From NCBI RefSeq assembly GCF_041431415.1, contig NZ_CP107845.1:7068001-7132000 (forward strand): a stretch of 64,000 bases of DNA, written 5' to 3'. Origin of the DNA: Streptomyces sp. NBC_00513. Lineage in GTDB: Bacteria; Actinomycetota; Actinomycetes; Streptomycetales; Streptomycetaceae. The translations under genes were made by a program, and so were the position numbers. Of the stretch, positions 32,195 through 39,515 are shown one piece after another. The number at the start of each line of letters is the position of its first letter. Positions within the stretch are counted from its first letter, which is position 1. The notes below the pieces were generated by a model. The model had not been told where the DNA came from, made no database searches, and saw only the letters and a program-made list of their open reading frames with translations.

Positions 32195-33451
32195 TCAGTC
32201 GGCGGCCGTCGACGGTCGCCCGAAATGGCGGGCCGTGGGTGTCAGCGCCGCGGCGGCGGGCGCGAGGAAGCAGGTCGCGGCGCAGACGGCGAGCACCGGT
32301 GTGACCCCGAAGACGTCGATGGCAGGAGCGATCAGGGCCAGGCCGACCGGGGCCAGGCCGTAGGAGACGAGGAAGTCCAGGGAGGAGACGCGGGCCAGCT
32401 TGTCCGGGGCGACCTCGCGCTGGGCGGCCGTGAACCAGGGCACGTTGAACAGCTCGATCCCGATCCCCGCCACCACGTAGGCGGCGATGACCACCAGCGG
32501 GTGCACCGGCAGCATCAGGCTCAGCGGCGCGAAGCCGTAGGCGGCCAGTCCCGCGAACGCCGTCCAGCCGGGGGAGCGGGGCCGTCGGCGGGTGGTGAGC
32601 ACGGCGCCGCCGAGCGCGCCGACCGTGTAGGCGGTCATGGCCGCGGCGAGGACCCACTCGGTGCCGGGGCGGTCGCGGCTGATCAGGGGCAGGGCGACGC
32701 TGGTGGCGGAATAGCCCAGGGCGACGACGGCGGTCAGGGCTCCGAGTCCGGCGAGGAACCAGGGGTGGCGTCGGGCCTCGCGTATGCCGTCGACGAACTC
32801 CGCGCGCAAGGACACGCGCGGTGTCCGCTCGGTGGACGGATCCGGAGCGGCTCCCCGGCCCGGCACGAAGGCGGCGACCAGCCAGAGCAGGCCGATTCCC
32901 GACAGGAGCGTCCGCACGTCGACGAAGGCCGCGACCAGCGCGGTCAGGGCGGGCCCGGCCAGCGTGGAGGTCCGTACCGAGAGGGACACGGCGGCGTTCG
33001 CCCGCTGTCGGCGATCGGCGTCGACGACCTCGGCGGTGAGTGCCTGGAAGGCGGGGCGGCAGGCTCCCTGGCCGGCTCCCGCGAGGGCCGCGGCGACGGT
33101 CATCAGTACGAGTGAGCGGCCGAGGCCGACGCTGAGGAGCGGGGCCGAGACCGCCGCCGCGAGGGCCGACCAGAGCACGACCGCCCGGCGGGAGTGACGG
33201 TCGGCCAGCACCCCTGCGACGGCGACGGCGCCGAGGAACCCCGCGGTGCGCGCGGCGAGGACCAGACCGAGTCCGGCCGCCCCGAGTTCGCGGTGCAGGA
33301 CGGCCAGCCCCAACACGAAGGGCAGCGCCCAGGTGGCGAGTCCGGACGCGGTGGTCCCGGCCCACAGGCGCAGGAAGGCGGGGTCGCGCAGGACGGAACG
33401 CGGGGGTGGCGGGGTGGGCCTGGGTGTCATGGGGGCGGGTGCGGTCGTCAC
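32195..33451 (-). CDS. MFS transporter, candidate exporter of a metal-binding product
   Basis: 418 residues with about twelve hydrophobic segments. It has the drug:proton antiporter look: motif A-like VLADRHSRRAVVLW after the second segment, and ALAGAGQGACRPAFQAL. GTG 33451 has GAGGAG nine bases upstream. It diverges from the ABC transporter and enzyme run at 33625, with one Fur/Zur-like palindrome between the two starts. In several siderophore and metallophore loci (for example staphylopine with CntE) a divergent or linked MFS protein exports the product, and I infer the same here. A general drug pump is the alternative. Confidence 0.85.
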   Translation of the reverse strand: MTTAPAPMTPRPTPPPPRSVLRDPAFLRLWAGTTASGLATWALPFVLGLAVLHRELGAAGLGLVLAARTAGFLGAVAVAGVLADRHSRRAVVLWSALAAAVSAPLLSVGLGRSLVLMTVAAALAGAGQGACRPAFQALTAEVVDADRRQRANAAVSLSVRTSTLAGPALTALVAAFVDVRTLLSGIGLLWLVAAFVPGRGAAPDPSTERTPRVSLRAEFVDGIREARRHPWFLAGLGALTAVVALGYSATSVALPLISRDRPGTEWVLAAAMTAYTVGALGGAVLTTRRRPRSPGWTAFAGLAAYGFAPLSLMLPVHPLVVIAAYVVAGIGIELFNVPWFTAAQREVAPDKLARVSSLDFLVSYGLAPVGLALIAPAIDVFGVTPVLAVCAATCFLAPAAAALTPTARHFGRPSTAAD

Positions 33452-33514
33452 GGTGCGGTGCTCCTCATCGGTCGGCAGGGTCCGGGTCGCGCCCCAGGGG
33501 GCACCCGGAGGTGT

Positions 33515-33535
33515 TAATGAAAACGATAACCATTA
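33515..33535. promoter_or_regulatory. Fur/Zur-family-like operator between MFS and metal-uptake genes
   Basis: A 21-bp AT-rich imperfect palindrome with perfect outer arms TAATG and CATTA. The inner 15-mer TGAAAACGATAACCA matches the actinobacterial Zur box TGAAAATGATTTTCA at 11 of 15 positions. It is 63 bp from the MFS GTG and 89 bp from the lipoprotein ATG, so one site could repress both directions when metal is plentiful. It does not resemble the iron box TTAGGTTAGGCTAACC of DmdR1/IdeR. Confidence 0.6.
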
Positions 33536-33624
33536 CAGTACTCTTCGAACGCGGTGCTCCTGCCCCGTGGGTGACCACGGCAGCGCACGGCGACAGCCAC
33601 GCCCTCTTTCGGATCGGAGACTCC

Positions 33625-34665
33625 ATGCGTCCACGCCACCGCGCCCGGCTCGTGACCGCGGCCACCCTCACCCTCGTTCTCGCCACCGGCGGTTGCTCGA
33701 CCGCCGGCGACGAACCCCCGGCCGGGGGCGGCGCCGCCCGGGCGACCGCCGGGGGAGCGACCGTCACCAGCTGCGGGCGCGAACTCGACTTCGAACAGCC
33801 CCCGAAGCGGGCCGTCGCCCTGGATCAGGCCTCGACGGAGACCCTGCTCGAACTCGGCCTCCAGGACCGGATGGCCGGGACGGCCAACCTGAAGACGAAG
33901 ATCCCCGATCGGTACCGGGACGCGTACGCAGGGATCCCCGTCATCGCTCCCAAGATCGCCACCGGCGAGCAACTCCGCTCCGCCACACCGGATTTCGTCC
34001 TGGCCGGGTCCGCCGACCTCTACACCGGCGACCGTGCGGGAACCCGCGAGGAGTTGGGTGCCCTCGACGTGCCCACCTTCGTCAGTGCCGTGGACTGCCC
34101 GCAGTCGCACGAGGCGGGGAAGAGCCCCTTCGAACTGCTCTTCTCCGACTACGAGCAACTGGGCAGGGTCTTCGGTGTCGAGGAGCGGGCGGGAAAGCTG
34201 GTCGAGGGGCAGCGCGCCGCCGTCGCGAAGGCCGGCGAGAACGCCTCGGCCGCCGCCCGCGACGCGAAGTCGCCCTCCGTCGTCTACCTCTACTCGGTTT
34301 TCAACGGCATGCCGTACGTCGCCGGGAAGGCCGGCCTGCCCGGCGAGATGAGCCGGATCGTCGGAGCGAGGAACGTCTTCGACGACGTGAACGAGGACTG
34401 GCCGGAGGTCTCCTGGGAGGAAGTCGCCAAGCGCGCACCGGACTTCATCGTCATAGGCGACCTGTCCGAACGCGGGCGGCCCGGTGACAGCGCCGCCGAG
34501 AAGCGTGCCGCGATGGCCGCGGACCCCCTGGTGTCGAAGCTTCCGGCGGTACGCGACAACAAGATCATCGTGGTGCCGGGCATCGAACTGGACCCCTCCG
34601 TGCGCTCCGTGCACGCGCTGGGCCTGCTGGCCGAGGGCATGAAGGAGCTCGGGCATGTCCGCTGA
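33625..34665 (+). CDS. ABC transporter substrate-binding lipoprotein (Fec/Btu type)
   Basis: 346 residues from ATG 33625, which has GGAG five bases upstream. The lipobox LATGGCS puts the mature Cys at about residue 23. The body is a TroA/BtuF/FecB-like two-lobed binding protein: ALDQASTETLLELG near the start, PDFVLAGSADLY, APDFIVIGDLS, and a C-terminal LLAEGMKELGH. Such proteins bind metal-chelates or cobalamin outside the membrane. It overlaps the permease gene by 11 bp and heads the six-gene run. Confidence 0.9.
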   Translation: MRPRHRARLVTAATLTLVLATGGCSTAGDEPPAGGGAARATAGGATVTSCGRELDFEQPPKRAVALDQASTETLLELGLQDRMAGTANLKTKIPDRYRDAYAGIPVIAPKIATGEQLRSATPDFVLAGSADLYTGDRAGTREELGALDVPTFVSAVDCPQSHEAGKSPFELLFSDYEQLGRVFGVEERAGKLVEGQRAAVAKAGENASAAARDAKSPSVVYLYSVFNGMPYVAGKAGLPGEMSRIVGARNVFDDVNEDWPEVSWEEVAKRAPDFIVIGDLSERGRPGDSAAEKRAAMAADPLVSKLPAVRDNKIIVVPGIELDPSVRSVHALGLLAEGMKELGHVR

Positions 34666-35811
34666 CCTCGCCGGCCGCCCGGGTCCGTCGGACCTGCTGC
34701 ATCCGACGGCACGCGGGGTGCGGCTCACGGCACCCACCCCCGGGACGCCGCCGCCGGACGGGGGGACGAACACGTCCCGCCCTTCGGCACCGGTGGGCCG
34801 GACCTCCCCGGCCCGGGCGTGGCCGATACTCGCCGCCGTCCTCGTACTGGCCGCCTCCGCGGCGGCCGCCCTGCGCATCGGTACCGCCCCCGTGGGGTGG
34901 GGCGACCTCGCCCGCGTCCTGGGCACGCACCTCGGCCTGGGCAACGAGCCGCTGCCACCACTGACCGACTCGCTCGTCTGGGACCTGCGACTGCCGCGGA
35001 TCCTGATGGCCGCGCTCGTCGGCGCCTCCCTCGCCGTCTGCGGCACCGTCCTCCAGGCCGTCACCCGCAACGCGCTCGCCGACCCGTACCTGATCGGCGT
35101 CTCCTCCGGCGCGTCGACCGGAGCCGTCGCCGTGGTCGTCCTGCCCCTGGCCGGCGCCGGAGCCCTGGGGGTCACCGGAGGCGCCCTCGCCGGGGCGCTC
35201 CTGTCCTTCGCCCTGCTCACGGCGCTGCTGCGTCGAACGGGGCTGGACTCGGTCCGCATCGTCTTGACGGGCGTGGTCGTCGGACAGCTCTTCACCGCTC
35301 TGACCTCGCTGATCCTGATGTCCTCGGCGGACGCCGACACGACGCGCGCCCTCACCCACTGGCTGCTGGGCTCGATGGCCCCCGCCCGCTGGGACGCCGT
35401 CGTGGTCTGCGCGATCGTCACACCGCTGGGGCTGGTCGCCGCGTGGCTGTGCGCCAACGCCCTCGACGCTCTCGCGTTCGGCGCGGACACCGCCGCGTCC
35501 CTGGGGATCGACGTACGACGCACCCGGATGCTGCTGCTCGTGGTGACGGCCGTGCTGACCTCGGTCGCGGTGGCCACCGTCGGCGCCATCGGTTTCGTGG
35601 GGCTGATCGTGCCCCACGGGGCGCGCCTCCTCGTCGGGCCGTCGCACCGGGTGCTGCTCCCCTGCGCGGCGCTCGCGGGCGCGGTGTTCCTGGTGTGGAC
35701 CGACGCTCTGGCCCGGGTCGCCTTCGCGCCCCGGGAGGTGCCGGTGGGCGTGATCACCGCCCTGATCGGCGTACCGCTGTTCCTCGCCGTCCTGCGCAGG
35801 AGGGGTGACCT

Positions 35812-35815
<4 letters not shown>
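34655..35815 (+). CDS. FecCD-family ABC transporter permease
   Basis: 386 residues. After a ~50-residue disordered cytosolic extension come about nine to ten hydrophobic segments. The family motifs are present: RLPRILMAALVGASLAVCGT, LQAVTRNALADPYLIGVSSGA and GAIGFVGLIVPHGARLL, the loop that contacts the ATPase. FecCD permeases import ferric siderophores, haem, zinc chelates or cobalamin. It overlaps the genes on both sides (11 bp and 4 bp), so the transporter is made as a unit. Confidence 0.93.
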
Positions 35816-36621
<806 letters not shown>

Positions 36622-36632
36622 CAAGGAACCCC

Positions 36633-37508
36633 ATGACCACCCCGACGACCACCGCGCCCGCACCGACCGTCCACGCCCTCGTCGAGGCCGTGCTGAAGGG
36701 CGAACACGGCCCGCTGCCCTCCGACCTCGTGGCGACCAGCGTCTTCTGGATCCACCACGGCACCCGGCTGGCCGGCGGCGACACCACCTACCTCAACCAG
36801 TACGTCCTGGTGCGCCTCGGCGGCTCCTTCGGCGCCTGCGCCTTCGAGTCCGGTGAGATCGACCCGTCGGTCTGCCGCGACTCCTCGGGCACCGCGCTCG
36901 ACGCCCTGCTGCGCGAGGGCCCACGCCCGCTGAGGATCGCCGCCCTCGACGCCTACCTCGCCGAGCGGCGCCCGCACCGCGAGGCGGCGGACGCGGGCGG
37001 CGCCGGCGCGGACACCCGACGGGGCGTGAGCGCCGAGCGGGTCGTCCTGCCCGCCGGCACCCCCGAAGTCCGTGCGCGGGCCCGCGACGCGGCCATCGCC
37101 GGGCTGCTCGACATCGAGGAGGGCGCCAAGGTCGGCCTCATCGGCGTGGTCGACCCGCTGGTCGCGGCGATCCGCGAACGCGGCGGCGACCCGCTGCCGT
37201 GCGACCTCAACCTCAAGGCCACCCGATGGGGCGATCCCGTCACCGCCGACATGCACGAGGTACTGGACCGCGCCGACGTCGTCGTCGCCACCGGAATGAC
37301 CCTGGGCAACGGCTCGTTCGACACCATCCTGGACCGCTGCCGCACCCGGGGCGTGCCCCTCGTCGTGTACGCGCAGAGCGGCAGCGCCGTGGCCCGCGCC
37401 TTCCTGGGCTCCGGGGTCACCGCCCTGTCCGCCGAACCCTTCCCCTTCTCCCAGTTCAGCGCCGACCCCACCGCCCTGTACCGCTACCGCGCCGAGGCCG
37501 GGGCATGA
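36633..37508 (+). CDS. DUF364/DUF4213-like Rossmann protein, putative heavy-metal chelation
   Basis: 291 residues from ATG 36633 (AAGGA upstream). The N-terminal ~120 residues resemble the DUF4213 enolase-N-like part (VFWIHHGTRLAGGDTTYLN). The C-terminal half resembles DUF364 with GLIGVVDPLVAAIRERGG, DLN, VVVATGMTLGNGSFDTIL and YAQSGSAVARAFLGSGVTAL. Family members are annotated as putative heavy-metal-chelating proteins and share a fold with nicotianamine-synthase-like enzymes; no reaction is firmly known. Placed between a metal-type importer and two biosynthetic enzymes, it could assemble, trim or strip metal from the chelator. Its stop overlaps the kinase start as ATGA. Confidence 0.75.
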   Translation: MTTPTTTAPAPTVHALVEAVLKGEHGPLPSDLVATSVFWIHHGTRLAGGDTTYLNQYVLVRLGGSFGACAFESGEIDPSVCRDSSGTALDALLREGPRPLRIAALDAYLAERRPHREAADAGGAGADTRRGVSAERVVLPAGTPEVRARARDAAIAGLLDIEEGAKVGLIGVVDPLVAAIRERGGDPLPCDLNLKATRWGDPVTADMHEVLDRADVVVATGMTLGNGSFDTILDRCRTRGVPLVVYAQSGSAVARAFLGSGVTALSAEPFPFSQFSADPTALYRYRAEAGA

Positions 37509-38569
37509 CCCCCGCGGCCCGCCGGAGCACGTCCGGCGCCGGGCGGCGTCCCGACGCCGGCCGTACCGGCACCGGGCACGCCCCCGGCCACCACGGCGAG
37601 ATACTCCAAGGCGTCTTCCTCGACGACACCGGGCGACACCGCGCCGGCCTGGTCACCCTGCCGTTGCCCGGTCCGGGCAGCCGCGCCGAGTTCACCCGCC
37701 TCCCGGGCACGCCGCCGCACCGGCTCACCGTGCTGCCGGCCGACCGCACCAAAGCGGCCCGCGCGGCGGCCCTCGCCGTCGCCGAGTGCGCGCCGGGGCA
37801 CCCGGAGCCCCCGTGCGGCGGCGAGTTGCGGATCACCGGCGACATCCCGGTCGGCCTCGGCATGGGCAGCTCCAGCAGCGATGTCGTCGCCGTGGTGCGG
37901 GCGGTCGCGGACTCCTACGGAACGCGCCTGACACCCGAGACGATCGCCCGGCTGGCCGTCCGGGCGGAGCTGGCCTGCGATCCGTTGATGCTCGACGGCC
38001 GCCCCGTGCTCTTCGCCCAGCGCCAGGGCCGGGTGCTGGAAGTACTCGGCCGCGCCCTGCCACCCGTGGTCGTCGTGGGCTGTTCCCTGGGCGCGGGCGC
38101 ACCCGTGGACACGCTCTCCCTGCCGGCCCGCGCCCACGACGACGGCGACGTGCGCGCCTGTGAACGGCTGCGTGTCCTGCTGCGGCAGGCCGTGGCCACG
38201 GGCGATGTCGCCCTGCTGGGCGAGGTCGCGACCGCCAGCGCCCGGCGCGGGCAGGAGGTCCTGGGCCACCCGGAGTTCGACAGCCTCACCGACGTTGCCG
38301 CGCGCTTCGGGGCCGCGGGCGTTCAGATCGCGCACAGCGGCTCCGTCGCCGGTGTGCTCTTCGACCCGGCCGCCCCCGACCTTCGGCGCCGGATCAGAAG
38401 CTGCGTACGGGCCCTGGAACACCGCGCGATTCCCACCACCCGCGTCTTCTCCACCTTCACCACCATCCCCGCGACCGAGGAGTTCCGCAGTGGACCAGCA
38501 CATCGCCGAGTCGATCGGCCGACCCGACCTGATACGCCTCGACGACCGGCTCGTCTGTCTCCGCTTTGA
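37505..38569 (+). CDS. GHMP-family kinase (PduX/threonine-kinase-like)
   Basis: 354 residues from ATG 37505. The GHMP fold is clear: GHHGEILQG near the start (substrate side), phosphate loop PVGLGMGSSSSDVVAVV at about residues 117-133, and the C-terminal AHSGSVAGVLFDP. It resembles PduX/BluE kinases that phosphorylate the hydroxyl of L-threonine. The next gene is a PLP enzyme of the O-phosphoserine/cysteine-synthase class, so one idea is that this kinase makes the phospho-amino acid consumed by that enzyme. Cobalamin side-chain synthesis is the alternative. It overlaps the next gene by 80 bp. Confidence 0.82.
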   Translation: MTPAARRSTSGAGRRPDAGRTGTGHAPGHHGEILQGVFLDDTGRHRAGLVTLPLPGPGSRAEFTRLPGTPPHRLTVLPADRTKAARAAALAVAECAPGHPEPPCGGELRITGDIPVGLGMGSSSSDVVAVVRAVADSYGTRLTPETIARLAVRAELACDPLMLDGRPVLFAQRQGRVLEVLGRALPPVVVVGCSLGAGAPVDTLSLPARAHDDGDVRACERLRVLLRQAVATGDVALLGEVATASARRGQEVLGHPEFDSLTDVAARFGAAGVQIAHSGSVAGVLFDPAAPDLRRRIRSCVRALEHRAIPTTRVFSTFTTIPATEEFRSGPAHRRVDRPTRPDTPRRPARLSPL

Positions 38570-39515
38570 GACGATGAAGGTCGTCTCGGCGCTCGCCGCG
38601 GTGCGCCACCTGCTCGACACCGGCGCGGTGCGGCGCGGGGACACCCTGGTGGACAGCTCCAGCGGCATCTACGCCCACGCCCTGGCGCTGGCCTGCCACC
38701 GTCACGGGATGCGCTGCCACATCGTCGGTTCCACGACGGTCGACCACACGCTGAGCACCCAGCTCGCCGTGCTCGGGGCGACGCTGGAGCGGATGGAGCC
38801 CTGCGACGACCTCAAACTGGACCAGAAGCGCCGGGTCGAGCGCGTTCACGAGATCCTCGCCGAGCACCCCGAATACCACTGGATGCGGCAGTACCACGAC
38901 GACATCCACTACCTGGGCTACCGCGCCGTGGCCGGCCTGATCCGGGAATCCACCGGCACGGACGAACTCACCGTCGTCGGAGGTGTCGGATCCGGTGCCT
39001 CCACCGGCGCTCTCGCCCGCTACCTGCGCGAGGACGCGCCCGGCGTCGAACTCGTCGGCGTCCAGCCCTTCGGCAGCGTCACCTTCGGCGCCGGTCACGT
39101 GAGCGACCCCGAGATCATCATCGCGGGGATCGGCAGCTCCATCCCCTTCGGGAACGTCGGCCACACGTCCTACGACACGCTCCACTGGGTCTCCTTCGAC
39201 GCCGCCCTCGCCGGCAGCGTCGACCTGCTGCGCAGACACGCGGTGTTCGCCGGGCTGTCCTCCGGGGCGGCCTACCTCGCCGCCCGCTGGGAACGGGCGC
39301 GGTCCCCGCGGCGTACGGTCCTCTTCATCGCGGCCGACACCGGCCACCGCTACGTGGACACGGTGTACGCCCGCCATCGGGAAGCCGTCGCGATCGACTC
39401 CCTGGCCCCCCGGCCGGTCACGACGCAGGGCGACCTCGCCCTCCCCTGGTGCCGGATGGACTGGGAGCGGGCCCCGGCGGACCCGCGGGCGAGCGGCGTC
39501 CTCGGGCGGGGATGA
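38490..39515 (+). CDS. Fold-type-II PLP enzyme (cysteine-synthase-like) with altered substrate loop
   Basis: 341 residues. GTG 38490 has GAGGAG seven bases upstream and lies inside the end of the kinase gene. Landmarks follow CysK/SbnA in order: PLP-Lys candidate in ETMKVVSAL, substrate loop SSGIYA, cofactor-phosphate loop GVGSGASTGALARYL, and C-terminal GLSSGAAYLAA and IAADTGHRYVDTVY. In CysK the substrate loop is TSGNTG; here Asn-Thr-Gly is replaced by Ile-Tyr-Ala, so the substrate must differ. Family members replace the beta group of (phospho)serine or threonine-type amino acids. With the kinase it may form a diamino acid or a new C-N or C-S bond of a small chelator; this is inference. Confidence 0.82.
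   Translation: MDQHIAESIGRPDLIRLDDRLVCLRFETMKVVSALAAVRHLLDTGAVRRGDTLVDSSSGIYAHALALACHRHGMRCHIVGSTTVDHTLSTQLAVLGATLERMEPCDDLKLDQKRRVERVHEILAEHPEYHWMRQYHDDIHYLGYRAVAGLIRESTGTDELTVVGGVGSGASTGALARYLREDAPGVELVGVQPFGSVTFGAGHVSDPEIIIAGIGSSIPFGNVGHTSYDTLHWVSFDAALAGSVDLLRRHAVFAGLSSGAAYLAARWERARSPRRTVLFIAADTGHRYVDTVYARHREAVAIDSLAPRPVTTQGDLALPWCRMDWERAPADPRASGVLGRG

Follow-up and report, generated by a model that had tools for sequence, protein, structure and literature searches.

A candidate Zur-repressed zincophore locus built around DUF364 and SbnA-like proteins in Streptomyces sp. NBC_00513

What would a bacterium make with a locus that combines an exporter of the major facilitator superfamily (MFS), an ATP-binding cassette (ABC) importer, a DUF364 protein, a GHMP-family kinase and a pyridoxal phosphate (PLP) enzyme around a single palindrome resembling a metal-regulator site? 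Such a locus occupies positions 32195 to 39515 of a 64,000-nucleotide stretch of Streptomyces sp. NBC_00513 (NZ_CP107845.1, positions 7,068,001 to 7,132,000), here called the window. We think it probable, from sequence comparisons, that the locus is a Zur-repressed system for making, exporting and re-importing a zinc chelator (zincophore), and that it works independently of non-ribosomal peptide synthetases (NRPS) and of NRPS-independent siderophore (NIS) synthetases. Its features are as follows.

32195..33451, minus strand: MFS exporter gene, divergent from the operon and present in 20/20 close-relative loci (PF07690, 111.8 bits)
33515..33535, no strand assigned: Zur-type box, the 21-bp palindrome TAATGAAAACGATAACCATTA, with two mismatches to the published motif
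33534..33539, plus strand: hexamer TACAGT resembling a -10 element, where the box ends; a putative promoter element
33625..34665, plus strand: ABC substrate-binding lipoprotein, Peripla_BP_2 (PF01497, 103.8 bits)
34655..35815, plus strand: ABC permease, FecCD (PF01032, 296 bits), with a possible inner start at 34793
35812..36621, plus strand: ABC ATPase, ABC_tran (PF00005, 118.5 bits)
36633..37508, plus strand: DUF364 protein, presumed biosynthetic enzyme (PF04016, 46.0 bits; gathering cut-off 23)
37505..38569, plus strand: GHMP-family small-molecule kinase (PF00288, 56.0 bits, cut-off 22.3; PF08544, 23.4 bits, cut-off 21)
38490..39515, plus strand: SbnA-like PLP (fold-type II) beta-replacement enzyme, PALP (PF00291, 110.8 bits)

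A previous sequence-only reading of the window had described a divergent MFS gene and six tightly packed genes around one palindrome, and its coordinates proved right. All seven reading frames are open, and the leftward MFS gene and six rightward genes share a common control region. Four of the five junctions between the rightward genes overlap (by 11, 4, 4 and 80 bp), and the ATPase and DUF364 genes are separated by an 11-bp gap. All seven proteins scored above their Pfam family cut-offs and, as that reading had stated, neither an NRPS nor an opine dehydrogenase domain was found among them by Pfam. The 80-bp overlap of the kinase and PLP genes (38490-38569) is out of frame; a plasmid-borne copy of the unit in Streptomyces melanogenes also has 80 bp of overlap and one in Streptomyces sp. 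SGAir0924 has 43 bp, which suggests translational coupling.

The regulatory assignment comes from the palindrome. The published Streptomyces Zur motif is described as a 15-bp 7-1-7 palindrome, and a 21-bp actinobacterial motif derived from znuA genes reads taaTGaNAANNNTTNtCANta (PMC5472717). When the window's own genome (8.6 Mb) was scanned with the 21-bp motif, allowing up to three mismatches, the box at 33515-33535 was the best match and the sole site with two mismatches; the motif read backwards, used as a control, gave seven strand-hits with three or fewer. One three-mismatch site precedes a ZnuA-family gene (Pfam ZnuA, 267.3 bits), where two such sites lie side by side, and two Zur boxes are reported for znuA of Streptomyces coelicolor (PMC5472717). 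The palindrome, previously called Fur/Zur-like, is real and fits a Zur box, to which Zur would bind. It is from this box that we infer zinc as the metal. In 20/20 close-relative loci a motif within three mismatches lies in the region that separates the MFS gene from the operon, and in 20 of 21 aligned regions the box is followed by a TA[CTG][AG]GT hexamer, so Zur could cover the promoter.

The close relatives came from an order-level draw of 391 genomes, 132 of which had a match to the PLP protein (E <=1e-40, all subtypes); 20 of the closer PLP-positive genomes were fetched with flanks. Genes in the relatives were called with a simple script, and the functions of several neighbours are our own reading of the sequence. 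The sequence-only reading had named a gene order not shared by relatives as grounds for its own rejection; on checking, the identical seven-gene order was found in 15/20, with different genes outside it, and the unit thus behaves as a module. Four others keep the MFS, DUF364, kinase and PLP genes together with another ABC importer and an extra methyltransferase-like gene, and one is without the kinase. A scan for DUF364 itself found 258 relatives, from which 80 loci were kept, in Streptomyces, Kitasatospora, Amycolatopsis, Prauserella, Pseudonocardia, Thermocrispum, Umezawaea, Actinophytocola, Actinopolymorpha, Actinorugispora and other genera. The core is present in most of these, with importers of several types and shifting positions, and tblastn detected the kinase in 71/80. 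Plasmids carry units too, in S. melanogenes, Streptomyces sp. SGAir0924 and Tsukamurella tyrosinosolvens, and those of S. melanogenes and Tsukamurella are complete. The previous reading is supported in that the genes form a conserved module, in which the exporter is a dedicated one and the importer is of the chelate type.

Which gene goes with the Zur-type box was examined in 151 pooled loci. Three without a PLP match were left out, leaving 123 with DUF364 and 25 without; after removal of eight duplicates, 140 loci remained, 115 with both DUF364 and PLP genes and 25 with a PLP gene but no DUF364. Using one published motif and up to three mismatches, a Zur motif was found in 94/115 of the former and 0/25 of the latter, and the reversed motif in 1/115 and 1/25, respectively. 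In a tree of the PLP enzymes, those linked to DUF364 fall into more than one lineage: the label needs three changes, and well-supported branches force at least two, an estimate limited by long branches. At the level of sequence, DUF364 is associated with Zur-type boxes.

The DUF364 protein of the locus belongs to PF04016 and has the enolase-N-like and Rossmann-like fold of the solved members of that family. The structure paper, in the excerpts available, assigns no reaction and proposes a role, by condensation or hydrolysis, in making metal chelators, siderophores among them (PMC2954201). We regard it as an even call whether DUF364 is an uncharacterised class of metallophore-biosynthesis protein that, with an SbnA-like PLP enzyme, turns amino acids into a zinc chelator in two or three steps, such that Zur-controlled DUF364 and PLP cores, joined by importers and tailoring enzymes (methyltransferase, ATP-grasp, dipeptide epimerase) that can be exchanged, would form an undescribed family of actinobacterial zincophore systems.

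The PLP enzyme conserves Lys30 and a glycine-rich loop, and the named proteins nearest to it are mostly from Streptomyces. The kinase carries the GHMP loop PVGLGMGSSSSD; its N-terminus, GHHGEILQG, presumably resembles those of cobalamin threonine kinases, and cobalamin L-threonine kinase (PduX/BluE) was not among the 18 NCBIfam families matched in a general scan, which was not an aimed test. A kinase gene is paired with a PLP gene in other clusters as well, some of which also have an argininosuccinate-lyase-like gene, and in NRPS clusters together with Lyase_1/ASL_C2 and ATP-grasp genes. Among the matches listed, the pair is present in 19/40 plasmid records that have the PLP gene. This recurrence strengthens the earlier idea that the kinase feeds a beta-substitution by the PLP enzyme. 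Kinase-PLP neighbours were also seen on plasmids of Mesorhizobium, Aminobacter, Azospirillum, Agrobacterium and Paraburkholderia phymatum (our locus L198 and plasmid matches), so the pair extends to the Proteobacteria.

From these parts we propose the following course. As zinc falls, Zur would leave the box at 33515-33535 and the operon would be expressed, probably along with the divergent MFS gene. The kinase would phosphorylate an L-hydroxy-amino acid, most likely serine, with threonine possible, and the SbnA-like enzyme would eliminate the phosphate and bring in an amine as nucleophile, probably that of aspartate or of some other amino acid. The product would be an N-(2-amino-2-carboxyalkyl)-amino acid, an aminopolycarboxylate of the ethylenediamine-disuccinate (EDDS)/aspergillomarasmine type. 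As the unit is without an argininosuccinate-lyase-like gene, we propose that this adduct stays whole and is not cleaved to give a diamino acid. The DUF364 protein would then modify or condense it to the final chelator, which the MFS protein would export, the metal complex being re-imported by the ABC system. MFS export and re-import by a Fec/Btu-type ABC system would follow the usual logic of metallophore loci.

Several observations weigh against this proposal. The best NCBIfam model of the PLP enzyme is SbnA (TIGR03945), with 138.5 bits against a cut-off of 349.95, and the enzyme is without the Asn of the SGN loop. F420-0 and corrinoid ABC families supply the importer's top NCBIfam models, all below cut-off. 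A kinase match is missing from 27/123 loci with DUF364 and PLP genes, within the stretch fetched, and we therefore take the kinase to be a dispensable part of the gene set. No motif was found at three mismatches in 21/115 DUF364 loci, of which some are short contig pieces and others have a four-mismatch site. As the pooled loci are related, their counts are not independent events. Finally, the gene set is patchy: draws across the whole phylum gave DUF364 (E <=1e-15) in 6/396 genomes and the PLP protein (E <=1e-40) likewise in 6/396.

The strongest alternative is that the locus encodes the EDDS-type (aes) aminopolycarboxylate pathway that others have described, or something very like it, with EDDS or a close analogue as its product, and is so not of a new kind. 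EDDS is reported to be a zincophore under strict Zur control and outside typical NRPS and NIS routes (PMC4993170, PMC9252823, PMC6103462), DUF364 units occur in some Amycolatopsis, and in a family-level draw round an Amycolatopsis genome the PLP match (E <=1e-30) was common (131/297, weak matches of 31-37% identity included). However, by our reasoning the route to EDDS should include a decarboxylation step and draw on a further C4 unit, for which there is no enzyme among the seven genes, and Amycolatopsis japonica was not among the matches listed (120 proteins). We consider identity with the aes pathway unlikely, though the least unlikely of the alternatives. The sequence-only reading had gone on to claim that the chemistry would be new, which is unproven, given the description of EDDS as a Zur-regulated zincophore made outside the typical routes (PMC4993170).

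A second alternative is that the exported product is a zinc-starvation weapon, an antimetabolite or metalloenzyme inhibitor directed at competitors, with the ABC system serving another purpose. Related kinase-PLP pairs do lie in clusters of the NRPS and the ATP-grasp (L-amino acid ligase) kind, which resemble those for peptide antibiotics, but a Peripla_BP_2/FecCD importer accompanies most loci, even if it is swapped for another type in some, which fits re-uptake and makes a weapon improbable. We give least credence of all to a cofactor system in which the kinase and the importer would work in the salvage of cobalamin or F420 precursors and no metallophore is made: the F420-0 and corrinoid models named above and the presumed likeness of the kinase's N-terminus to cobalamin threonine kinases speak for it, but none of these models reaches its cut-off, Rfam returned no family at gathering score in 25000-46000 and hence no riboswitch, a Zur-type box and a dedicated exporter are ill-suited to salvage, and the importer is exchanged in relatives while DUF364 and PLP stay.

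Other cluster types were also seen. One distant DUF364-PLP lineage, found in Streptomyces and Rhodococcus (L173-L175, L196, L197), combines an ATP-grasp protein (L-amino acid ligase type), DUF364, PLP, a dipeptide epimerase, an MFS protein, a methyltransferase and an SBP_bac_5 peptide/nickel-type ABC importer; its Zur-type sites deviate from the motif at 1 to 4 positions. The window's own genome holds a second DUF364-PLP pair of this lineage (L172:8187-10240; C1 about 1,293,200-1,295,200), with about 42% and 43% identity to the nearest reference proteins of the set and a four-mismatch Zur-type site in front. Clusters without DUF364 or a Zur motif (L037-L040, L166, L190) contain a kinase (not in all), PLP, ATP-grasp, MFS and methyltransferase genes, and several adjoin an ABC importer or a ferric-reductase-like gene; these are possibly iron-type relatives. 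In L044, L046 and L047, PLP relatives of approximately 48-52% identity have several ATP-grasp genes as neighbours, along with an adenylation-type protein and a P450-like gene, as read from the sequence.

If the zincophore proposal is true, it adds a short, two- or three-enzyme NRPS-free route to a zinc chelator, and DUF364 would gain a function. Given the frequency of the PLP gene (132/391 and, with weak matches, 131/297), a widespread form of competition for zinc in soil may so far have gone without a name. Biodegradable chelators resembling ethylenediaminetetraacetate (EDTA) have practical uses.

Among known systems, the opine metallophores staphylopine and pseudopaline are small zinc chelators under zinc control that are exported and re-imported; the locus differs in that Pfam found no nicotianamine-synthase-like or opine-dehydrogenase domain in its seven proteins. 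The diaminopropionate module of staphyloferrin B (SbnA/SbnB) shares the SbnA likeness of the PLP enzyme, which stays below the SbnA cut-off, as given above. SbnA uses O-phosphoserine. The locus has no SbnB-like protein and has the kinase and DUF364 instead. In the diamino-acid modules of NRPS clusters, a kinase (43-45% identity) likewise adjoins a PLP enzyme (36-37%); those modules have Lyase_1/ASL_C2 and ATP-grasp genes, whereas the window has neither and is set apart by DUF364, the importer and the Zur-type box. Coelibactin is a Streptomyces precedent for a chelator controlled by Zur (PMC5472717, PMC6103462), but it is an NRPS zincophore, and the locus contains no NRPS. The nearest kind is that of EDDS and ethylenediaminesuccinic acid hydroxyarginine (EDHA), which are likewise described as small actinobacterial chelators made independently of NRPS and NIS, EDDS being Zur-regulated (PMC4993170, PMC10702961). 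The Zur-type box would match that control; no decarboxylase-type gene is among the seven, and the likeness to the aesA-aesD systems is drawn from their descriptions. On that comparison, we take the locus to be probably a variant of the EDDS kind.

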